A DNA stretch of 34,301 nucleotides from Candidatus Giovannonibacteria bacterium RIFCSPLOWO2_02_FULL_45_28. GTDB lineage: Bacteria > Patescibacteriota > Minisyncoccia > UBA11713 > 2-01-FULL-45-33. Shown here piece after piece: positions 3,504 to 31,654 of this stretch. Location: contig MFIM01000012.1 in NCBI GenBank assembly GCA_001780725.1, forward strand, positions 1-34,301, given 5' to 3'. Numbering within the stretch: position 1 is the stretch's first letter; each line of letters starts with the position of its first letter. Both the position numbers and the translations under genes were made by a program. The notes under the pieces were generated by a model that was given only the letters and a program-made list of their open reading frames with translations, was not told where the DNA came from and ran no database searches.

Positions 3504-4073
3504 TTATCCGCCGCCCTGCCAGCGCAAAATCGCTTTAAACGGATAAATCAGCATAATGATGTTTAACGCAAGATTGTCGCGAATGTAATAGCCCACAAAA
3601 AGCTCCAGTCCGATTGCGATTAAAACAATCGTCCACATCGGCATGCGCCAAGCCATCCAGAACCCCAGAACCATAAAAAGCGCGTCAAAAACCGAATTAA
3701 TAACGCTGTCTCCGTAATAATCCAAAGAAATCGTGGTTTCGCGGTATCTGTTTATAGTAAAATCCGTATTTTCAAAAATTTCCCAGCCAACCTCCACAAA
3801 CAAAGCGAGTAAAAATCTCAAACCGAGCGACCAGCCGCGCTTCCGGCCAATACGCCAGAAAAACCAATAAAAAATAAAGCCGTGAATGATATGTGAAAAA
3901 GAATACCAATCGGAAAGATGCTGGGAATTTTCGGAGCTTACAACCACGCCCTGCCAAAGCTTTACATAACCGCATTTGCAAATCGGCACCCTTCCCATCC
4001 AAAGCAAAATAGCGGCAAACACCAAAAGAACCGCAATTGCGGCAGTAAACCAAAACCAAGAAAAGCTTTTCAT
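3504..4073 (-). CDS. DUF2585 (UPF0314-like) membrane protein
   Basis: GWEIFENTDFTINRYRETTISLDYYGDSVINSVFD motif. Confidence 0.75.
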   Translation of the reverse strand: MKSFSWFWFTAAIAVLLVFAAILLWMGRVPICKCGYVKLWQGVVVSSENSQHLSDWYSFSHIIHGFIFYWFFWRIGRKRGWSLGLRFLLALFVEVGWEIFENTDFTINRYRETTISLDYYGDSVINSVFDALFMVLGFWMAWRMPMWTIVLIAIGLELFVGYYIRDNLALNIIMLIYPFKAILRWQGGG

Positions 4074-4093
4074 TTATTCATATTAGCACAAAT

Positions 4094-5082: not shown

Positions 5083-6490
5083 AGGTTTGTGTTCTTTGTT
5101 TAGCCCGCTCAATCATGTCCTGCACCACATCATCCCTTTCCGAAATGGGCATATTAAGATGGCCGTAATATTCCGCGCCTGCAAGCAACGCAATGGTGCT
5201 TACAAGGCCATTGGATATTGAATCCAGATGTGGACGGACAATTTGAGTCGGATCGCCGGTAAAAACTATTTTTGATCCCTCTCCTAGGCGCGTCCTGACA
5301 ATCTCCGCTTCCTTTGGGGTTATATTTTGAGTTTCATCTGCGATCACGAATTGATTGAAAAACGTGTCTCCCTGAAGATACATAATTGGACCAATCTCTA
5401 AAGAGTCTCCCAAAGACGCTTCAGTAATTTCTAAATCACTAGATCTGGATTTTTTAGAAGATTTTTTCTTATCATCTTTTGCCGGATGACCAAGCATTCT
5501 ATTAAATAATTTTAAAATCGGCTTTTTCCAATCCTTAAATTTTTCGTGCAAGTCTCCAGGCATAAAACCAAGCTCCAAACCAACTCCTGCAGGCGTGCGA
5601 AAAACTGTAAGTTGGTTATATAAGCCTCCTAGTTGTTCTATGCCCGCGCATAGGCTCATAAGCGTTTTGCCAGCTCCAGCAACCCCACACAGAGTCAGAA
5701 CGCGAACAGAAGGATCCGTAAGCAGCGCGTAAGCAAACCACTGATACATATTTCTCGGAATGAGTTCGTCGGCTGTTTTTTTGCTACGCGGTTTTACCAA
5801 AACAAACGTGTGAGCCTGTTTTTTATAAATCGCCATGGCTTCTTGGCCATCGCTGTTGCGGATTAGGCAGCACTGGTTTGGATGCAAATTCAAATCGGAA
5901 GCAAGCGCATCTTTTATAAAACTTTCGTCCAAAGATCCAACCTTCAAAAGCTCCGCCACCGCCCCAAGCTCGTCTTTTTCCAACACAATGGTTGAAAAGC
6001 CGGAATAAAGTTCGTTTAAAGACGACACAAGCTTATCGTGCTTATAGTCTTGAGCGAGAAGCCCGCACGCGTTTGCTTTTATGCGCATGCTGTTTTCTTT
6101 GCTGACAACAATAACTTGCCGACATGGATTCGCATTTTGAAGTTTCTTGGCCAGCAAAATCATCCTGTTATCATTGGTTTTTTCCAAACCAACAGGCAAA
6201 AGCTGGAAATCCTCATCAGAAGTATAAGAAATGAAAATCCTGCCGCCGCCGCGCGTAGGCACGCCATTTGTAAGCGATCCTTGATCGGAGAAGGCCACGA
6301 TTTTTCTTAAAGCGGCTCTGGCTGATGCGCCCTTTTCTCCATCCGCCTTTTTCAAACCCTCTAGCTCCTCAACAACGGCTATGTGCAAAAAAACACAGTT
6401 GTCTCCAAAATTCTCCAAAGCCTCATCTTCATGCATCGGAACGCTTGTATCCACAACGTAAATCTTTGGCGTCTCTGGTGTATCGCTCAA
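5081..6490 (-). CDS. PhoH-family protein with N-terminal PIN domain (PhoH2-like PIN-ATPase)
   Basis: N-term IYVVDTSVPMHEDEALENF...ALRKIVAF (PIN), C-term GVAGAGKTLMSLCAGIEQ and FVIADETQNITPKEAEIVRTRLGEGSKIVFTGDPTQI (PhoH). TTG start chosen because AGGAGGT lies 5 nt upstream. Confidence 0.88.
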   Translation of the reverse strand: MSDTPETPKIYVVDTSVPMHEDEALENFGDNCVFLHIAVVEELEGLKKADGEKGASARAALRKIVAFSDQGSLTNGVPTRGGGRIFISYTSDEDFQLLPVGLEKTNDNRMILLAKKLQNANPCRQVIVVSKENSMRIKANACGLLAQDYKHDKLVSSLNELYSGFSTIVLEKDELGAVAELLKVGSLDESFIKDALASDLNLHPNQCCLIRNSDGQEAMAIYKKQAHTFVLVKPRSKKTADELIPRNMYQWFAYALLTDPSVRVLTLCGVAGAGKTLMSLCAGIEQLGGLYNQLTVFRTPAGVGLELGFMPGDLHEKFKDWKKPILKLFNRMLGHPAKDDKKKSSKKSRSSDLEITEASLGDSLEIGPIMYLQGDTFFNQFVIADETQNITPKEAEIVRTRLGEGSKIVFTGDPTQIVRPHLDSISNGLVSTIALLAGAEYYGHLNMPISERDDVVQDMIERAKQRTQT

Positions 6491-6644
6491 AAAGCACCTC
6501 CTGATGCTAGACTTCTTTGTCAAAAAGCCTTATTTGTAAGATTAAATTATTGTGAGAATTTGTCAAATTGTATTTGACTTCGATCTTAAAGTATGCTAGG
6601 GTAAAACAAGAAAGAAAAAGGCTTGGTCAGGAAGGAGATTTGCA

Positions 6645-7565
6645 ATGGGATTAGTTGAACATTGTGAAAATTTGGGGTGGGAGGGGTGTATTAATATAGA
6701 CAAAAAACCGGAAAGCGTTTTGCTTGTTAAAAACCTCTTGCGTAATACAAAGATCAATGAGGAGCTTAAAAAACACAGGTGGCCTAACACTCGCTATTAT
6801 GTTGATATGGTTACAGCCGAGCTTGAAAAAAACGGCGAGCTGCAAAAGCCGTGGCGGTGGGAACTTGCCGGATCCGGAAAAATCTCATGGTGGGCCGGGA
6901 ATGAAACTCTGCAAGAAGAGTTTCAAGCGCTCGCGCTGGAAGTAAAAGTTAAATTTTCTAAGAAATCAAAATTCAATATCGATAGCCCAGCGCAGAAAGA
7001 ATTTTTAAGTCATGTCGCGGAGCGCGTCCTGCAAGATGATACACTGCTTTTGCGGGCGGCGGATGCCACAGTAGAGTGCGAGAGTCTTGAAGAAACAGGC
7101 CTTCAAATTACGGAAAAAGAGCTCATTCACCGATTCACCGGCAAAAACAGGGACAGCGGCGGTCCATATCCGAAATTTCTTTATTTAGTTAAATCTGCAG
7201 AAGGCGAATTACGCAACGAACCAGTTAAAACAACTATTTCAGCGCCGAAATGGGTTAAGCTCCGAGATCTCTATGTGTGGAAAGATCGCGATGTTGAAGA
7301 AGAGCAGTTTTTAATTCACAAGAGCCACTTAGGAGCGATATTAATAGCTCTTAAGAAATTTATAGACGGCGGTGAACCAAAATTCCAGCATCTAGCCAAT
7401 TTGCTTGAAAAGAGAATGGTCAGACCGTACTACAATAATCCACGCGCCGCCGAACAGGAAAAAGCCATTAGAGCGCCAGAAGAAGAAAAGCAGACTCCGG
7501 CAATCAATTACGAAAGCTGGAGGGAGGTAGCCGAAGACAGCAAAATCAAGCCGCTACGCAAGTAG
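6645..7565 (+). CDS. Hypothetical protein with degenerate NUDIX-like region
   Basis: AADATVECESLEETGLQITEKELIHRF resembles a NUDIX box; good SD (GGAAGGAG). Confidence 0.6.
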   Translation: MGLVEHCENLGWEGCINIDKKPESVLLVKNLLRNTKINEELKKHRWPNTRYYVDMVTAELEKNGELQKPWRWELAGSGKISWWAGNETLQEEFQALALEVKVKFSKKSKFNIDSPAQKEFLSHVAERVLQDDTLLLRAADATVECESLEETGLQITEKELIHRFTGKNRDSGGPYPKFLYLVKSAEGELRNEPVKTTISAPKWVKLRDLYVWKDRDVEEEQFLIHKSHLGAILIALKKFIDGGEPKFQHLANLLEKRMVRPYYNNPRAAEQEKAIRAPEEEKQTPAINYESWREVAEDSKIKPLRK

Positions 7566-7576
7566 CGGCTTTTATT
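7551..7576 (+). terminator. Intrinsic terminator
   Basis: AGCCGCTAC-GCAA-GTAGCGGCT then T-rich. Confidence 0.8.
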
Positions 7577-7577
7577 T

Positions 7578-7716
7578 ACCCCCACACCAATTGAGTTATT
7601 GCAAATTTTCTGTGGGAATAGTTACTAACAGTTTTCAATGCAAAATATTAAGCGAGGTTTAGGCAAGTAAATATAAATTTGCGTCAGCCACAGAATACCT
7701 CAATTGGTGTGGGGGT
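7578..7716. repeat. 139-bp inverted-repeat element, 23-bp termini (ACCCCCACACCAATTGAGTTATT / AATACCTCAATTGGTGTGGGGGT)
   Basis: Termini match with one mismatch; internal arms GCAAATTT/AAATTTGC and TTCTGTGG/CCACAGAA. Confidence 0.85.
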
Positions 7717-8409
7717 TTATCCCCAATTTTTCACTTTTAGCGCGGCCTCGGCGGCACTTTGCTGCGCCATCTGTTTAGACGCGCCTTCGCCTTCGGCTAC
7801 CAACTCCTTCCCCAAATAAACTCCGACAATAAAATGCTTGTCGTGATCCGGCCCCCATTCTTTAATAACTTGATAAGTAGGAGTAATCCCGACGCGCTCT
7901 TGGGCTTCTTCTTGAAAAAGACTTTTTGCGTCCCTGTAGAGTTTTTTTTCTAAAATTTCTGAAAGTTTCGCGGTCAAAACTCTTAAAATAAAATCCCGCG
8001 TCGGGTTGTAACCTTGGTCAAGATAGATCGCCCCTACAACCGCTTCAAAGGTGTTTGCTAAAATGTACTGCCTCGCACGGCCTATGTCTTTCGCCTCGCC
8101 GCGCGAAAGCAGCAAAAAATTATTAAAATCCAGCTCGCTCGCCACAGCCCCAAGCATATTTGCGTTAACCAAAGAAGCGCGCAGAGCCGTCAAATCGCCC
8201 TCCGGTTTTTCCGGAAATTTTTCATAGAGATATTCGGTAATCACAAGCTCTAAAACCGCATCTCCTAAAAACTCAAGCCGCTCGTTGTGTCCGCCACCCA
8301 TATTCGGGTTCTCATTTAAATAAGAACGGTGAGTTAAAGCTGTACGCAAAAGATCTTTGTTATGAAAAACAATGCCCAATGTTTCTTCAAATTTTGATAA
8401 GTTAAGCAA
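7717..8409 (-). CDS. rnc: Ribonuclease III
   Basis: NERLEFLGDAVLELVITEYLY, ANTFEAVVGAIYLDQGY, C-terminal dsRBD. Confidence 0.97.
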   Translation of the reverse strand: MLNLSKFEETLGIVFHNKDLLRTALTHRSYLNENPNMGGGHNERLEFLGDAVLELVITEYLYEKFPEKPEGDLTALRASLVNANMLGAVASELDFNNFLLLSRGEAKDIGRARQYILANTFEAVVGAIYLDQGYNPTRDFILRVLTAKLSEILEKKLYRDAKSLFQEEAQERVGITPTYQVIKEWGPDHDKHFIVGVYLGKELVAEGEGASKQMAQQSAAEAALKVKNWG

Positions 8410-9338: not shown

Positions 9339-9421
9339 TTTTTACGGTTGGCCTATTAATTAAGTCAAACTAAATAATTTTTACTAAAAGAAGCCAACCG
9401 TAAAAATTATTTAGTTTGACT
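9339..9421. repeat. Nested inverted repeats between rpmF and nusB, pseudoknot-capable
   Basis: Perfect 21-bp pair 9363-9383 / 9401-9421 and perfect 14-bp pair 9339-9352 / 9393-9406 sharing sequence. Confidence 0.85.
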
Positions 9422-9643
9422 GGTCTCTAATTCTCTTGTTTTCTCCTTGCGTTCCTTTTTTGTTAATTTTTTAAGCACATCAATTACCTCCCGCCCTTTA
9501 TAAAACCCACAGTTTTGGCAAACCGTGTGCGGCGGTGTTTTTGCCCCGCATTTCTGGCATTTCGCAAGACTCCCAAGCTTTAAAGCGTGGTGAGACCTGC
9601 GGTGTCCTGTATGGGAAGGGGTGTGCCTCATTCTGACTGTCAT
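9407..9643 (-). CDS. rpmF: 50S ribosomal protein L32
   Basis: [21 protein letters not shown]... with CxxC...CxxC zinc ribbon. Confidence 0.93.
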
Positions 9644-9668
9644 AAAGCATATTCTAGCATAAAAAAGA

Positions 9669-9822: not shown

Positions 9823-10419
9823 TTAAACAAAATTATGACAAAAGCTAAGGCGGTGGATAGATGATAAGCCGTGTTTTTTTATTGCTTGTCGATGGAGTTT
9901 CGTGCCATAACCCTTGTGAACAGCAAGGCCGTATTGCGGAAACAACTTATGCAGCCGCGTCATTTTTCTGTCGCGGTAAACTTTAGCGACAATGGATGCG
10001 GCGGCAATCAGCGGAATTTTTTCATCGCCCTTGATTATTGTCTTTTGGTTCAAATATGTTCTGGGGGCATAGAGACTGCCGTCCAGCAAAATTTTGTAGT
10101 TTATGGTTGATAGTTGGTAGTTGGTAGTTAATTTGCGCAGGCACCTGCTGACAGCCAAACGCGCCGAGGCAGATATGCCAATTCTATCTATAATTTGCGA
10201 ACCGACCGAAGCAATAGCAAAGCCGAGTGCTTTATGCCGTAAGCCATACGCCTTAATTTTGGATTCCCAAACTTTGCGCTGCTTTGCGCTTAATTTTTTG
10301 GAATCTCTGATGCCGCGAAAATTAACCGCGCGCCGCATTAAAACCGCGGCAACGGTCAATGGACCCGCAAGACATCCTCGCCCAACCTCGTCAATTCCTA
10401 CAATAAATTTTCTTGCCAT
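9823..10419 (-). CDS. rnhB: Ribonuclease HII
   Basis: VGIDEVGRGCLAGPLTVAAV, DSKKLSAKQR, AAASIVAKVYRDRKM. Confidence 0.96.
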   Translation of the reverse strand: MARKFIVGIDEVGRGCLAGPLTVAAVLMRRAVNFRGIRDSKKLSAKQRKVWESKIKAYGLRHKALGFAIASVGSQIIDRIGISASARLAVSRCLRKLTTNYQLSTINYKILLDGSLYAPRTYLNQKTIIKGDEKIPLIAAASIVAKVYRDRKMTRLHKLFPQYGLAVHKGYGTKLHRQAIKKHGLSSIHRLSFCHNFV

Positions 10420-10443
10420 ATTAAAATCCTATCACAACCCCAC

Positions 10444-10472
10444 ACATGTTAGACGCCGAGCTTCTAACATGT
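10444..10472. repeat. REP-like hairpin, left copy (ACATGTTAGACGCCGAGCTTCTAACATGT)
   Basis: Inverted repeat just upstream of the RAYT gene. Confidence 0.85.
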
Positions 10473-10485
10473 TAGCATAACACCA

Positions 10486-11148
10486 ATGAGAACAACGCCA
10501 ATTGCGCCCGGAGAATATTACCACATCTTTAATCGAAGTAATGATAAACAACCAATCTTTTACGAAACAAAAGACTGGGTGCGCTTCTTGTTCCTTATTT
10601 TACATATGCAATCTCCAGAAATATTTTATAACATCGGCCGCAATATCTCCAAATTTGTTAGAAGCCGAGCTTTTAACATAAATGGCGAAATAATGTCTGA
10701 AATAATCAAAAACCGTACCGTAGAATTAGTTTCTTACGCTTTAATGCCTAATCATTTCCACCTGACAGTTAAAGAAGTTAAAGAAAATGGTATTTCACAG
10801 TACATGCAGCGTGTTTTGACAGCTTACCCAAAATACTTCAACACAAAATACAATAAATCAGGTCATTTATTTCAAGGGCCGTATAAAATCGTACACACGG
10901 AAGATAACAAGCAACTTTTATATCTCTCTGCGTACATTCATAAAAACCCTCGAGAACTAAAGGAGTGGAGACAAAAGGAACATAATTATCCTTGGTCCAG
11001 CTACCAAGATTATGTTGGCGAAAACAGATGGGGGAATTTATTATCGCAAGACATTATTTTGGATCAGTTTGAAAACAAATCCGAATATTACAACTTTGTA
11101 AAAACAAATACCGCAAAAATGTTAGACGCCGAGCTTCTAACATTTTAA
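10486..11148 (+). CDS. REP-associated tyrosine transposase (RAYT, Y1/IS200-like)
   Basis: YYHIFNRSNDKQPIF, YALMPNHFHLTVKE (HUH), YLSAYIHKNPRELKEW...YPWSSYQDY. Confidence 0.9.
   Translation: MRTTPIAPGEYYHIFNRSNDKQPIFYETKDWVRFLFLILHMQSPEIFYNIGRNISKFVRSRAFNINGEIMSEIIKNRTVELVSYALMPNHFHLTVKEVKENGISQYMQRVLTAYPKYFNTKYNKSGHLFQGPYKIVHTEDNKQLLYLSAYIHKNPRELKEWRQKEHNYPWSSYQDYVGENRWGNLLSQDIILDQFENKSEYYNFVKTNTAKMLDAELLTF
10656..10678. repeat. REP-like hairpin inside the RAYT coding region (TGTTAGAAGCCGAGCTTTTAACA)
   Basis: Same core as flanking REPs. Confidence 0.75.
11119..11145. repeat. REP-like hairpin, right copy (AATGTTAGACGCCGAGCTTCTAACATT), encoding the RAYT C-terminus
   Basis: Identical core to left copy; encodes MLDAELLTF. 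Confidence 0.85.
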
Positions 11149-11187: not shown

Positions 11188-11682
11188 ATCTAAAACCTCA
11201 TAGCCATGTTTTTTCCAATAAAGTTTTAACCTTCTCCAGTCGTTCGAAATAAAGTTTTTTAGCCATTCCTCTGTTCTTGATTTGTCATCAGCCCCGCACA
11301 TATCAACCACAGCCTCGCTGCCATCAGCATGTTTCGTTGGCCAAATGCCTCCAAAAAACATAGGTTTACAACCACCGACTAAATTGCTGCTACCCAGCAA
11401 GGCATTAACCTGTTCTGACTCAAGCGGCTGACCATAAATATAAATTGGCCGGTGGCTCAATTTCTTAACATTGGTTATCAAATCCTTAATTTGGCCACGA
11501 ACTGTCTGGTCAGATGCATCATAAAATTTCATAGATACTGCCAAGCCCCTTATGCCGTCCTTTTTTGAAACTGCATTCTGTAGTTCGTCAAAAGAAGCCA
11601 CAAAAGAAATATCGTCTTCTGCTCCTAAAGCCGGGTTGCCAAACAAAAAGAGTGCAAATAAAACCGCAATTACCGTTTTCAT
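11185..11682 (-). CDS. Secreted hypothetical protein
   Basis: Signal peptide MKTVIAVLFALFLFGNPALGA; SD AGGAGG. Confidence 0.75.
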   Translation of the reverse strand: MKTVIAVLFALFLFGNPALGAEDDISFVASFDELQNAVSKKDGIRGLAVSMKFYDASDQTVRGQIKDLITNVKKLSHRPIYIYGQPLESEQVNALLGSSNLVGGCKPMFFGGIWPTKHADGSEAVVDMCGADDKSRTEEWLKNFISNDWRRLKLYWKKHGYEVLD

Positions 11683-11745
11683 GAAACCTCCTAATCTGCT
11701 AAAAGCCTAGCGCAATTAAAAATTTTTGTCTAGAATGGTATCATT

Positions 11746-16752: not shown

Positions 16753-17715
16753 TTATTTTATGAAAAAATCGTCGTAGGGAATATTTGGCACCAAGCCAAA
16801 TTCTATGGCTTTTTTGATTGCCATCTTATGGACTTCCGGATCCCAAGAATCCGGTATAACCCGCTTAACGTCATTTTTGGCGACCTCCAGTCCTTTTTCT
16901 GTTTTTATGCCAAGCATATCTTTGTAATCAGCAACTATTTCCGGGTGCTCAAAAACATATTTTTCCGCCTCTAAAAACACCCTGCTGACTTTTTTGAAAG
17001 TTTCCGGATGGGCGTCTATCCAACTTTTATGCGCAGACATCATTGCAAATGACATACGCGATCCGGTCGTGTTCCGCCATCTTGATTCCAGATCAAGCAC
17101 TGTTCTTACTTTGCCTTCCGCGATAAGATCGGCGCCGCCGAAAGGCACAGAGAGAACTGCGTCCACTTCTTTTTTAAAAAACGATGCTAAATTGTCAGGA
17201 ATAGAACCGAACGTTAATCTGTAGTCCTTTTCCAAATTAAATCCGGCGACTTTCATTGCCAACGCCAAGCTTTTGTACGCAGCTGATACTTTCGGCCTAA
17301 TTGCCACTCGCGCGCCCTTGAGATTGTCCAAACTCTGGTAATGCGAATTTGCGTCAACAATAAAGTCCAGGCTTCCCCAAATGAGAGGCGCGAAAGCCAC
17401 AAGGTCGTGCCCCTTGGAATTTACCTCAACCAATGAAAGCGTTGGAATACTGCCCACTTCCACGCCACCGACTTTTTCGGAAATGACTCTTACTGTTTCC
17501 CCGGGAGCCGTATAGCTGAATTCAATATTTAAGCCGTTTTTTTTATCAAAACTCTTGTCTTTTATAACCCTGGTGATTAATTTATCCACAGGCGCATCCG
17601 CAGACGACACTTTTAACGGCTCTATCACAACTTCGCTCTTGTAATTGCGATAAAAATAAAAACCTATAGCTATGGCTAATAATAGAACAATCCCAACCTT
17701 ATATAAATTTTTCAT
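16753..17715 (-). CDS. ABC transporter substrate-binding protein, NMT1/SsuA-like
   Basis: Signal anchor, GLNIEFSYTAPGETVRVISEKVGGVEVGSIPTLSLVEVNSKG, LKGARVAIRPKVSAAY...VDAVLSVPF. Confidence 0.72.
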   Translation of the reverse strand: MKNLYKVGIVLLLAIAIGFYFYRNYKSEVVIEPLKVSSADAPVDKLITRVIKDKSFDKKNGLNIEFSYTAPGETVRVISEKVGGVEVGSIPTLSLVEVNSKGHDLVAFAPLIWGSLDFIVDANSHYQSLDNLKGARVAIRPKVSAAYKSLALAMKVAGFNLEKDYRLTFGSIPDNLASFFKKEVDAVLSVPFGGADLIAEGKVRTVLDLESRWRNTTGSRMSFAMMSAHKSWIDAHPETFKKVSRVFLEAEKYVFEHPEIVADYKDMLGIKTEKGLEVAKNDVKRVIPDSWDPEVHKMAIKKAIEFGLVPNIPYDDFFIK

Positions 17716-17778
17716 ATAAATCAATTATAGCACCGAAATCCTCTTTCTGTAAAACCCAAAAAGTGCTAGCATAAAACC

Positions 17779-18978
17779 ATGCCTGAAAGCAAGAAACACA
17801 GAGACCATCGCGAGTTGGGACAGGAAATGGACCTTTTTTCATTTCATGAAATCGCACCGGGGGCGCCTTTTTGGCATCCCAAGGGAATGATAATTTTCAG
17901 GGAACTTGAGAAAAAAGCGCGCGAGATAAACGACCGCGAAGGATACGATGAAATTTCCACGCCGATAATGGTAAAAAGGGAAGTTTTTGAGAAATCAGGC
18001 CATTGGGAGCATTACCGCAACAATATGTTTTGGTTTAAAAATCCCGTGGATGAAAACGAAACGCTTGCCATAAAACCGATGAATTGTCCCGAATCAACTT
18101 ATATTTATAATTCAAAAATCAGAAGCTACCGCGATCTGCCTTTGCGCCTAGCAGAAATCGGTAGACTGCACAGAAACGAACTTTCTGGAACTTTGGGCGG
18201 GATGTTTAGGGTGCGGCAAATCACGATGGACGATGCGCACATTTACGTGCGCCAAGATCAGGCTGAAACGGAAATTTTAAAGGTGATACAAACAATCAGC
18301 GAATTTTACAAAAGTCTTGGCTTTGAAACAGAGTATTATCTGGCTACCCGCCCGGACAAGGCGCTGGGCGAACAAAAAGAATGGGAACTTGCGGAAAAAG
18401 CGCTTGAGAACGGGCTTGGGCGGTCTAAAATAAAATATAAGCTTGCCAGGGGCGAGGGCGCTTTTTACGGGCCAAAAATTGAAGCACATATCAAAGACAG
18501 CCAGGGGCGGGATTGGCAATTGGGAACAGCCCAGCTGGATTTGGTCATGCTGCCTGACAAATTTGATTTAGCGTACACGGATGAAGCCGGTAAAAAACAA
18601 AAACCGTGGGTAATACACCGCGCGATTTTCGGTTCTTTTGAAAGATTTATCGGGATTTTACTGGAACATTTTGACGGGGCTCTCCCTTTTTGGCTCTCGC
18701 CAGTACAAGTAGCGGTTCTTACAATAAACGAAAAAGTTTTGGGCTACGCTCAAAACGTAACCGCAGAGCTTCAAGGTAAAAATATTAGAACCGAATTAGA
18801 TTCTAGAAATGAAACAATCGCCAAAAAAATCCGCGAGGCGGAAATCCAGCACGTTCCGTACATTTTAGTGGTAGGCGAAAAAGAAATGAAAGAAAATAAA
18901 GTTGCCGTGCGCGAACGCGGCAAGGGAGATATTGGGATAATGAATATTGACGAGCTTATTAAAAAGGTTTTAAGCTAA
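17779..18978 (+). CDS. thrS: Threonyl-tRNA synthetase lacking N-terminal TGS and editing domains
   Basis: Starts at HRELGQEMDLFSFHEIAPGAPFWHPKG; has MNCPEST, RLAEIGRLHRNELSGTLGGMFRVRQITMDDAHIY and anticodon-binding domain. Confidence 0.95.
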   Translation: MPESKKHRDHRELGQEMDLFSFHEIAPGAPFWHPKGMIIFRELEKKAREINDREGYDEISTPIMVKREVFEKSGHWEHYRNNMFWFKNPVDENETLAIKPMNCPESTYIYNSKIRSYRDLPLRLAEIGRLHRNELSGTLGGMFRVRQITMDDAHIYVRQDQAETEILKVIQTISEFYKSLGFETEYYLATRPDKALGEQKEWELAEKALENGLGRSKIKYKLARGEGAFYGPKIEAHIKDSQGRDWQLGTAQLDLVMLPDKFDLAYTDEAGKKQKPWVIHRAIFGSFERFIGILLEHFDGALPFWLSPVQVAVLTINEKVLGYAQNVTAELQGKNIRTELDSRNETIAKKIREAEIQHVPYILVVGEKEMKENKVAVRERGKGDIGIMNIDELIKKVLS

Positions 18979-19984: not shown

Positions 19985-20024
19985 TTTCTTGTATAAATTT
20001 CTTCCGTAATGCTAGCATTTGGCT

Positions 20025-21092
20025 ATGAAAGAGTCAAGGATTATTGTGATTGTCGGGCCGAACGCGAGCGGGAAATCAGAATTGGGAGTGAAATTGGCCA
20101 AGAAATTAAACGGCGAGATTATCTCCGCCGATTCGCGGCAAGTGTATAAAAAATTGGATGTTGGAAGTGGGAAAGTTAGAGGTAGATGGAAAAAAGGAGT
20201 TTTCATTTATAAAAACGTCACCCATCGTTGCATAGACATTGCCGATCCGAAAAAAGTTTTTACCGCGCTGGATTTTAGAAAATGCGCAGAGAAAGCTATT
20301 GCGGATCTTTTAAGCCGCGGGAAAACGCCAATTATAGTAGGCGGCGCTGGTTTTTATATTGACGCAGCGCTTGGACGCATAAAATTAGGCGGAGTTCCGC
20401 CGGACCCAGTGCTCCGCAAAAAACTTGCCGACTATTCAACCACTCAACTACTCAACTATTTAACTGAATTAGATCCCGCGCGCGCCAAATCAATAGAACA
20501 AAAAAATCCGCGGCGGCTGATTCGGGCAATTGAAATAGCGTCAGCAAAGCATGACTCTTCTCCAAAAAAGCGCTGCGGTGTTGATTTTGCTAGCAGAGGA
20601 GAAACTAATGACCCTCTGAACGGGTTTTTCGCCCTTTTTGGCACGGTCCCCAAGCGTAGCGAGGGGCAAAAAGGTGCGAAACCCTCGGAGCCCCGCGCTG
20701 GCGGAGCGAGAATGAGTGAAGAGGGTGCATTAGTTTCTCCTAAAAACATTCTCTGGTTAGGCATCAAACGCATGCCGGAAGAGCTTAAAAAACGCATTCG
20801 TACGCGTTTAATCAAACGCCTTCTCGGAATTATTCGCGAAGTAAAGAAGCTCCGCCGAAGCGGAGTTTCTTGGAAAAGGCTCTATGATTTTGGGCTGGAA
20901 TACAGATACATATCGCTATATCTGCGCGGCAGGTTGGACTATAAACTAATGGCTACTCAACTACAAACTGCCACATGGCACTATGCAAAACGCCAGATGA
21001 CATACTTCAAAAAAAACAAGGAGATCCGCTGGATTTCCGCAAACAAAGAAGCACTCCGAAGAGTGCCAATATCAATCAAGGACGGGAAATAA
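20025..21092 (+). CDS. miaA: tRNA dimethylallyltransferase
   Basis: IVIVGPNASGKSELGVKLAKKLNGEIISADSRQVYKKLDVGSGK; contains a ~50 aa repeat-encoded insertion. Confidence 0.95.
   Translation: MKESRIIVIVGPNASGKSELGVKLAKKLNGEIISADSRQVYKKLDVGSGKVRGRWKKGVFIYKNVTHRCIDIADPKKVFTALDFRKCAEKAIADLLSRGKTPIIVGGAGFYIDAALGRIKLGGVPPDPVLRKKLADYSTTQLLNYLTELDPARAKSIEQKNPRRLIRAIEIASAKHDSSPKKRCGVDFASRGETNDPLNGFFALFGTVPKRSEGQKGAKPSEPRAGGARMSEEGALVSPKNILWLGIKRMPEELKKRIRTRLIKRLLGIIREVKKLRRSGVSWKRLYDFGLEYRYISLYLRGRLDYKLMATQLQTATWHYAKRQMTYFKKNKEIRWISANKEALRRVPISIKDGK
20597..20741. repeat. 145-bp multi-hairpin inverted repeat inside miaA
   Basis: Outer arms AGGAGAAACTAATGACCCTCT / AGAGGGTGCATTAGTTTCTCCT; inner arms GGGTTTTTCGCCCTTTTTG / CAAAAAGGTGCGAAACCC; central CCCC...GGGG hairpin. 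Confidence 0.85.
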
Positions 21093-29466: not shown

Positions 29467-30230
29467 GGAATCGGTCTGAAAAAGATTTCCGCCTTAAAAA
29501 CCCCCTCTATGGCCTGCGGCCACGTAAAGGTCACGCCTCTTTCTTCAAAAATATTTAATTTATCAATAACTGTTTTGGAGGCGCCCAAACTCTCGCCTTC
29601 TTTATTTAGCAAAACAGCGCTGGTTTCTATTTTTTGATAAACTTCGCTGTTTGATTGGTTTTTTACTCCGATCTCCAGCCGCGGGGCAATCGCATCAGTA
29701 AGAAACAGGTCCTTTTTTAAAACATCAATTCGGAGCGGATCCGACCTGCTGGATTCCCAGCTTACGGCGCGCATTTCCAAAACTGCATTTTTCGGCGTCC
29801 GGTTTTGGGTTACAATACTAGGCTCAAAAACAAGAAACTTTTCTCCCGGCAAAATAAAAGTTGAGTTTTCGCGGATAGCAATTAAAACATTGTTTTCATC
29901 ATACAGTTTGACAGCGTAAACAAATTTTTGGGCTTTGAGAAATTGGTTGCCGTTATTCAAAAGCGCAGCGATGTCATATACGCCCTCTCTGACCGGAAAA
30001 AATCTCGTCCATAAAATCGTGAGGTCGTGAATTTTTTCCGAGCAAGGCGCGCAGCGCGCGACCTCGCCGCCGCAATCCACGCCTTCTTCATCCTGATTTT
30101 GGCGGTTGTCAAAACAAGTAGGCTGCGGTCGGAGATAATAAATAACGCCGAAGACAATCAGCAAAACAACTATTGCAAAAACAGAAAAAATGGCGAGCTG
30201 TCTCCGGAGTCCCCAAGTAAAAAACGGCAT
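29463..30230 (-). CDS. Single-pass membrane protein, hypothetical
   Basis: N-terminal TM plus CFDNRQNQDEEGVDCGGEVARCAPC motif. Confidence 0.65.
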   Translation of the reverse strand: MPFFTWGLRRQLAIFSVFAIVVLLIVFGVIYYLRPQPTCFDNRQNQDEEGVDCGGEVARCAPCSEKIHDLTILWTRFFPVREGVYDIAALLNNGNQFLKAQKFVYAVKLYDENNVLIAIRENSTFILPGEKFLVFEPSIVTQNRTPKNAVLEMRAVSWESSRSDPLRIDVLKKDLFLTDAIAPRLEIGVKNQSNSEVYQKIETSAVLLNKEGESLGASKTVIDKLNIFEERGVTFTWPQAIEGVFKAEIFFRPIP

Positions 30231-30275
30231 AACTCCAGTATATAAAATTTAACGCAAAAATACTATAATACCCTT

Positions 30276-31214
30276 ATGGCTACGCGGGCGAAAATATTGG
30301 TAATATCGCTTTTGGCTTTTGCATTGACTTATTGGACCGGCTTTTCATATTTAGGCACCGCGCTTGAAACTCCGGCTTACTATATTGCGAGTTTGATTTT
30401 TGAAAAGACGACGTCGCCGCAAGAATTGATTAAAAAATACGAAAAGGGCAACATAAAAATTCTGATAGTCCCCGGACATAACAAAGAAAGTTACGGGGCG
30501 CAATACCGCGGGGTCACGGAGGCGAGCCTAAATGCCGAATTGGGCAGTCAGCTCTTTGAATATTTCAGAAGCGACCCAAAATTTACCGCGTTCATTACAA
30601 ATAAAAACACCGGGGAGTATAATGACTGGATTTCGGATTATTTAAAAAACCAAGAAACGGCAATCAACACTTTTAAAGAAAAGGTAAAATCAATTTTTAA
30701 AAACGCCGTGAAAATAGGGGCGATTAAAATAGAAACAAAAGTTTACCACAACCCCGCGGCTGATAATTCTTCAAAACTTCTTTATGGCATAAACAAGTGG
30801 GCAAATGATAGTGGTGTAGACATAGTTTTGCATCTGCATTTCAACGATTACCCCGGCAGAAAATACGACATGCCGGGCAAATACAACGGTTTTGCGATAT
30901 ATATTCCGGACGATCAACTTCCTAATCATCAGGCAAGTTTAGAGATTGCAAAATCAATAAGAAAAGAGCTCAAAAAAATCCAGACCGAGAGCAATTTTCC
31001 AAAAGAAAAAGATATTATCATAGAAGATCAGCAGTTAATAGCAATCGGCTCCAACGCCTCGCGCGACGGAGTTTCTATTTTGGTGGAATACGGATATATC
31101 TACGAACCTGAATTTTATGACAAAGAAATCCGCCCATACGCCCTGCGTGACGCGGCTCTCACAACATACCAAGGCGTCAAAAACTTTTTTGAGAAAAAGT
31201 CTGTCCGAAACTAA
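30276..31214 (+). CDS. N-acetylmuramoyl-L-alanine amidase (Amidase_3-like)
   Basis: ILIVPGHNKESYGAQYRGVTEASLN, VDIVLHLHFND, GVSILVEYGYI. Confidence 0.75.
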   Translation: MATRAKILVISLLAFALTYWTGFSYLGTALETPAYYIASLIFEKTTSPQELIKKYEKGNIKILIVPGHNKESYGAQYRGVTEASLNAELGSQLFEYFRSDPKFTAFITNKNTGEYNDWISDYLKNQETAINTFKEKVKSIFKNAVKIGAIKIETKVYHNPAADNSSKLLYGINKWANDSGVDIVLHLHFNDYPGRKYDMPGKYNGFAIYIPDDQLPNHQASLEIAKSIRKELKKIQTESNFPKEKDIIIEDQQLIAIGSNASRDGVSILVEYGYIYEPEFYDKEIRPYALRDAALTTYQGVKNFFEKKSVRN

Positions 31215-31302: not shown

Positions 31303-31563
31303 CTAGAAGTTTGCCTTAGCGCGCCGATTCTTCTCCTCGTGGCCTTCGATCATGCTATGGAGCCAGAGAACAAGAATCGCTGCAAAAGTAGCCAGATAAA
31401 TACCGCTGCCAAGAAGCGGAACCCCGAGAGATTTCTCGCCAGCTATCATGTAGGCAGCGATGGTCATCTCTAAACCGCCATTAAACACCAGAAACAAATC
31501 GACCAAAAACCCACATGTCGCCACCGCGACAACCCATGAACCAAACATTGTTATGGTTTTCAT
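31303..31563 (-). CDS. Small membrane protein, hypothetical
   Basis: MKTITMFGSWVVAVATCGFLVDLF...; SD AGGAGGT upstream. Confidence 0.65.
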   Translation of the reverse strand: MKTITMFGSWVVAVATCGFLVDLFLVFNGGLEMTIAAYMIAGEKSLGVPLLGSGIYLATFAAILVLWLHSMIEGHEEKNRRAKANF

Positions 31564-31654
31564 AATCGGCACCTCCTGTTGTGAGTTTATCATAGAAATT
31601 ATGATTTGTCAATAGCGCAAAAGCCTTATTTTATAAGGTATTTTTGAGTAGTTA

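Follow-up and report, generated by a model that had tools for sequence, protein, structure and literature searches.

The window (the whole 34,301-nt stretch of DNA that was analysed, from a Candidatus Giovannonibacteria contig) includes thrS, which encodes a short threonyl-tRNA synthetase of 399 aa (17779..18978, + strand). Its mRNA is predicted to be leaderless: an extended -10 element, TGCTAGCAT, is found at 17764..17772 (+), 6 nt before the ATG at 17779. The same element is at 20010..20018 (+), 6 nt before the ATG at 20025 of miaA (20025..21092, +; also predicted leaderless), and this ATG lies 6 nt inside the mechanically called ORF, which begins with TTG. Four genes on the minus strand have similar elements. 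These are rnhB (9823..10419, predicted leaderless; TGATAGGAT at 10426..10434, spacing 6), rpmF, encoding bL32 (9407..9643, with its start ATG at 9643; TGCTAGAAT at 9651..9659, spacing 7), a gene for a DUF2585-like membrane protein (3504..4073, predicted leaderless; TGCTAATAT at 4080..4088, spacing 6), and a gene for a substrate-binding protein (16753..17715, with its start ATG at 17715; TGCTATAAT at 17724..17732, spacing 8). The names of the last two proteins are putative and come from a preliminary description of the window.

A seventh motif, TGTTAGCAT at 10470..10478 (+), is 7 nt before the start of a RAYT (REP-associated tyrosine transposase) gene, and it is ambiguous as a -10 site because it adjoins a REP-like palindrome, ATGTTAGACGCCGAGCTTCTAACAT. 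Copies of this palindrome flank the gene (10447-10478 and 11119-11145), and the apparent -10 abuts the upstream copy. Two more sites lack the TG: TATAAT at 30264..30269 (+), 6 nt before the ATG at 30276, and TATACT at 30237..30242 (-), 6 nt before the ATG at 30230.

The preliminary description had listed these nine sites as extended -10 elements, and a script confirmed the positions of all of them (9/9). The extended form, with TG, held for 7 of the 9, and only a plain -10 box is present at 30264 and 30230. Four other genes had been described as having clear Shine-Dalgarno (SD) motifs, and this held too, with AGGAGG or AAGGAG 4-8 nt before each start. These motifs are AAGGAG at 6632..6637 (+) for the gene at 6645 (part of our contrast set), and AGGAGG at 6497..6502 (-) before the TTG start at 6490 of a PhoH-like ATPase, at 11687..11692 (-) for the gene at 11682, and at 31572..31577 (-) before the ATG at 31563.

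Overall, the window has 8 TGnTAnnAT sites at 6-8 nt before an ATG, while 200 simulations with an order-2 Markov model gave a mean of 0.72 and a maximum of 4. At control spacings of 16-18, there were no such sites in the window. The window also contains two copies of an inverted repeat, acattccgacattctcaagaatgtcggaatgt (2570-2605 and 2884-2922), and, at 7575-7720, a long one around ccccacaccaattgag. As for thrS itself, its best matches have open frames of about 400-430 aa in the same family and in some other families of the class, versus about 580-650 aa in most other families, so this short form lacks N-terminal domains, which are probably the TGS and editing domains.

A spacing peak between the -10 motif and ATG

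We analysed the whole genome (G000) of this tiny, uncultured bacterium rather than the window alone. The assembly has 886,299 bp in 29 contigs, with 44.6% G+C, and is 98% complete, with an estimated contamination of 0.29%. We called 737 genes with a simple home-made caller that is blind to upstream motifs. For comparison, we used G006, a member of the same GTDB family (contig C17 of G006 includes sequence MFHU01000017.1 of Candidatus Giovannonibacteria RIFCSPHIGHO2_12_FULL_44_22), and two thirds of the genome of G141, a relative from a different family that has no anti-SD in its 16S gene. As controls, we used the same motif at the wrong spacing (such as 16-18 or 18) in place of reversed patterns.

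Across G000, the distance from TGnTAnnAT to ATG was 6 nt in 67 cases, 7 in 26, 8 in 20, and 9 in 15, with about 7 cases at each distance elsewhere. These counts were anchored on the motif first, without any gene prediction, so the peak does not depend on how starts were predicted. A peak was hinted at for GTG as well (9 cases at both 6 and 7), and the counts for TTG, AAG, CTG, and GTA in G000 were flat. The preliminary description had said that the lack of a genome-wide spacing peak would refute its prediction of leaderless transcripts; the peak is there and it is strong. With the -10 hexamer at -12 to -7 and a spacing of 6, the +1 position falls on the A of the ATG.

Under a strict test for a -10 at spacings of 6-8, 137 of the 737 genes in G000 had the motif, versus 13 at control spacings of 16-18. 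The peak was seen again in the two relatives, with 109 of 516 genes (18 for the control) in G006 and 84 of 347 (11 for the control) in G141. In other words, about a fifth of the genes in G000 seem to have a promoter so close that the predicted mRNA starts at the AUG, although this is inferred from sequence alone. Genes with the motif accounted for 23% (111/480) of genes that are single or first in their operon, versus just 5% (7/140) of overlapping genes. Most genes in G000 (530/737) had neither a -10 nor an SD motif under the strict test. These genes are A/T-rich near the start and many are internal to operons; the A/T-rich starts would fit initiation on unstructured mRNA or coupled initiation, which is a possibility only.

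Several observations concern the nature of the motif. In the spacing-6 set from G000, a -35 element that had not been selected for is visible (T, T, and G at frequencies of.57,.54, and.46 at -35 to -33), which gives the pattern TTGnnn with a 17-bp spacer. The TT of this element can be seen in G006 and G141 too. TG at -15/-14 was present at frequencies of 0.66-0.75, but this was partly selected for. Also, 18 of 60 genes with SD motifs in G000 have TGnTAnnnT 30-44 nt upstream, which implies that these genes have short leaders. Given the unselected -35 element and the presence of the motif well upstream of SD genes, we conclude that the motif is a promoter.

The -10 bases are also under selection between genera. 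Among 35 orthologues from G000 and G006 that have the same start, and which were chosen by the motif in G000 only, identity was.71,.77, and.71 at positions -12, -11, and -7 and.57 and.54 at the TG, versus about.30 in the flanks. In 49 pairs of orthologues, both genes were classified as leaderless; no pair had SD motifs in both. For thrS, the -10 element is tgttagcataaagccATG in G002, tgctaacataaatccATG in G003, and tgataatattaataaATG in G004, with a spacing of 6 in all three, and it is TAAAAT at a spacing of 7 in G006. For the gene at 30230, G006 keeps TATACT 6 nt before the ATG and does not keep a nearby GGAG. The predicted leaderless transcripts are thus supported by the spacing peak, the -35 element, selection on the -10, conservation at thrS, and depletion in overlapping operons. 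No RNA data or mapped 5' ends exist, so it remains an inference that these sites, which fit sigma-70-type extended -10 promoters, yield leaderless transcripts.

More broadly, in 96 genomes from across the phylum, the median number of hits was 20 at a spacing of 6 and 6 at a spacing of 18. Spacing 6 had more hits than spacing 18 in 88 of the 96 genomes (P = 4e-16, Wilcoxon test), and so leaderless promoters are common in Patescibacteria. For example, G058, which has a normal anti-SD, had 43 hits at a spacing of 6 and 5 at 18.

The 3' end of the 16S rRNA gene

In G000, the 16S gene lies on the minus strand of contig C9. Its helix 45 is intact and folds, and the helix is followed by GAGTTTCATTTTTAAT in place of GATCACCTCCTTT. 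CCTCC is absent after helix 45 from the 16S genes of G000, G006, and G008. The gene in G000 lacks part of its 5' end, but its 3' end agrees with the two relatives. Where a 16S gene was found, each genome of the family had just one.

To see how widespread this is, we compared a 33-mer from helix 45 of G000, without the tail, to 84,980 species genomes. This gave at least 80 readable contigs from named organisms. They carry the names Nomura-, Kaiser-, Zambryski-, Giovannoni-, Vogel-, Niyogi-, Staskawicz-, Campbell-, Taga-, and Yonathbacteria, or are from unnamed Parcubacteria. None of these 80 Parcubacteria contigs with the same helix 45 had CCTCC or CTCC in the 20 nt after the helix. Nor was CACCTCC found within 250 nt 3' of helix 45 in any of 78 contigs, so no intron hides the anti-SD, and we rejected that possibility.

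In a sample from the class, with 55 genomes whose tails could be read, the anti-SD is gone from 29 tails, 6 retain CTCC, and the other 20 are canonical. The class therefore shows a graded decay, in which CCTCC gives way to CTCC and then to nothing, and there are intermediates such as GGAACATCTCCTTTCT. Outside of the class, 27 of 28 tails were canonical, and the other one reads CCGCC. We sought bS21 as an explanation for the loss of the tail and obtained only weak matches (60/93 genomes). Era, which binds GAUCACCUCC, is also lost in most CPR (PMC10582724).

Some other features of these genes are worth recording. The 16S gene of G000 (around 69345-70329 of C9) has introns, one of which has a probable homing-endonuclease ORF, as well as a 217-nt tandem duplication that is perhaps a misassembly. 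It is followed by a tRNA-Ile on the opposite strand and not by 23S. Many tails that lack the anti-SD have a short palindrome, TTCCAATTGGAA or TTCAATTTGAA, in the usual place of the anti-SD; G000, G006, and G008 have instead a conserved block of two hairpins that ends with GGGACAAAAGAAAAAGTG.

Genes with Shine-Dalgarno motifs

The preliminary description also claimed that two modes of initiation coexist, and at the level of motifs this held. What it had not foreseen is that most of the SD genes are accessory, and that the anti-SD is missing from the 16S gene. The contrast genes of G000 have an SD motif at 4-10 nt, but the complementary 16S tail is absent. SD motifs outnumbered their controls in G000 (69 vs. 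23), but G006 has almost no SD signal (15 vs. 10) and G141 has none (5 vs. 6). The SD genes of G000 are mainly first in their operons. Orthologues in G006 exist for just 6 of the 60 (the gene at 6645 is among those without one), as compared to 62 of the 111 genes classified as leaderless (P = 1e-9), and the coding scores of the SD genes are lower (P = 3e-4). No gene in G000 has both a -10 and an SD motif, but this has no value as evidence because both occupy the same bases. Our reading is that many of these SD genes were acquired from lineages that use SD motifs; without an anti-SD, such motifs may or may not still have any effect.

We also considered a simple trend, in which loss of the anti-SD leads to more leaderless genes and fewer SD motifs. 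The median leaderless count was only slightly higher in genomes that lack the anti-SD than in canonical genomes (21 vs. 16.5), and the comparison to canonical and CTCC genomes together gave P = 0.036, without correction for kinship. The excess of AAGGAG across the class did not drop with loss of the anti-SD. As the first half of the trend is weak and the second half is absent, a link between anti-SD loss and leaderless initiation is not established, and we do not retain the simple trend.

Four genomes of the class, all from family f141 (G304, G327, G346, and G365), have a canonical CCTCC in 16S, yet AAGGAG is not in excess before ATG in any of them. They are the mirror image of the genomes that have an SD excess and no anti-SD. 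Separately, contigs C25 and C28 of G000 have SD-rich stretches that encode proteins resembling citrate synthase, thiolase, and a mutase with a B12 domain, which we recognised by eye. Such proteins are unusual for the phylum, and the stretches are perhaps acquired metabolic islands.

Leaderless initiation without an anti-SD as the likely explanation

Taken together, the explanation that we favor combines promoters at the start codon, leaderless mRNAs, and loss of the anti-SD from the 16S gene. As a whole we consider it very likely, but the start sites of transcription and leaderless translation are inferred parts of it. A sigma-70-type extended -10, TGnTAnnAT, usually with a TTG at -35 that is 17 bp upstream, would place +1 at the start codon, so that transcription would begin at the A of the AUG or 1-2 nt before it. 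mRNAs that begin there would therefore be leaderless, without a ribosome-binding site. Translation would start by direct recognition of the 5'-terminal AUG, and the ribosome that recognises it most likely carries the initiator tRNA already. This step is by analogy: in other bacteria, leaderless mRNAs are translated by the ribosome carrying initiator tRNA (PMC10783764). Since CCTCC has been lost from the 16S gene in this lineage of Paceibacteria/Parcubacteria, leaderless starts are the only start signal that we can recognise on core genes. As for the strong SD motifs of G000, most of the genes that have them are accessory and have short leaders, and the 16S gene contains no anti-SD to match. 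The motif, the spacing peak, the -35 element, the conservation, and the loss of CCTCC from the gene are shown. The sites of transcription initiation, leaderless translation, and the fate of the mRNAs with SD motifs are inferred from sequence alone.

The alternative that survives best, and which we still consider unlikely, is that the SD genes of G000 are from contaminating contigs, so that the mix of two modes is an artefact of binning. In its favor, the SD genes are accessory and are clustered on C25 and C28. However, SD genes and leaderless genes lie side by side on C1, C9, C16, C12, and most of the larger contigs, and the estimated contamination is low (see above).

Second, the anti-SD might not be lost: it could be supplied after an intron or by a second, unassembled copy of 16S, or it could be hidden by a misassembly. 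The 16S introns, the tandem duplication in the G000 copy, the real SD motifs in G000, and the persistence of the AAGGAG excess in other genomes without an anti-SD would all fit this idea. Against it, the 80 independent genomes all agree, all 78 downstream stretches lack CACCTCC, the family has a single 16S gene per genome where one was found, the class shows graded decay, and there are hardly any SD motifs in G006 and G141. We therefore think that retention of the anti-SD is very improbable.

Third, the motif might be a translation signal rather than a promoter: ribosomes could bind it as an A+T-rich element, or it could be a variant SD that pairs with the altered 16S tail. The fixed distance to the ATG, the A/T-rich starts of genes with neither motif, and the A+T-rich non-SD sites that are known in Bacteroidota (PMC9581028) are consistent with this. 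But a translation signal does not account for the unselected TTG 17 bp upstream, and TGnTAnnnT also occurs 30-44 nt before SD genes, where a ribosome site is impossible. Pairing with a variant anti-SD in G141 was rejected, as 5-mers complementary to its 16S tail were not enriched before starts. This alternative seems highly unlikely as well.

Finally, chance matches in an A+T-rich genome with loosely chosen starts are all but excluded: TAnnnT by itself occurs often (26,799 sites in G000), but chance does not explain the 67 cases at a spacing of 6 as against about 7 elsewhere, the 8 sites in the window as against 0.72 in simulations, or the conservation of the -10 in orthologues and at thrS.

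Leaderless promoters with strict spacing have precedents, and our favored explanation, promoters at the start codon of leaderless mRNAs, resembles them in part. Zheng et al. (2011; PMC3160421) described bacterial leaderless genes in which a TA-like signal precedes the start by about 12 nt. As in G000, this signal has a TANNNT core and is read as a -10 box, and a TG extension was reported where G+C is low. Unlike those cases, G000 is dominated by the extended -10 at 44.6% G+C and has a 16S gene without an anti-SD. The groups named there include Actinobacteria, Deinococcus-Thermus, Aquificae, Chloroflexi, and Firmicutes, and a search by term found no entry for a candidate division. In Deinococcus-Thermus, a -10 box adjoining the ORF drives leaderless mRNAs, with strict spacing, for about 30% of ORFs, and this was tested experimentally (PMC12340547). 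The -10 next to the ORF and the coexistence with an RBS motif are alike in G000, but G000 also shows TG and -35 contacts and its 16S anti-SD is gone.

Bacteria whose 16S tails lack CCUCC after helix 45, as in G000, are concentrated in Bacteroidetes, Tenericutes (Mycoplasma), and Carsonella, where SD motifs are absent too (Amin et al. 2018, PMC6107228; PMC10783764). Here, in contrast, the loss affects much of one class, it is graded, and G000 keeps SD motifs on accessory genes. The relevant sections of those two papers name no Patescibacteria among the cases without CCUCC. In the open-access literature that we searched, we found no report of leaderless starts or of anti-SD loss in Patescibacteria. 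Leaderless initiation was already known; that it occurs together with loss of the anti-SD across a clade, here in Paceibacteria, appears to be new, although priority was not fully checked.

The loss of the anti-SD from the 16S gene in Giovannonibacteria and their relatives was unexpected, and the graded decay is seen in one of the most conserved sequences of bacteria. A bolder reading is that much of Paceibacteria has ribosomes that naturally lack an anti-SD, that leaderless initiation is the default for core genes, and that SD motifs are present only on acquired genes and do not pair with the 16S rRNA; we see no strong reason to bet for or against it. Patescibacteria make up a large share of bacterial diversity and have barely been cultured, and the gene finders and expression tools that are applied to them assume SD signals. 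An AUG that is 6 nt after TGnTAnnAT offers a rule for correcting gene starts. If our explanation is true, then a natural lineage without the anti-SD would make a debated question testable: whether bacterial ribosomes that lack the anti-SD can run a cell on leaderless and unstructured mRNAs.
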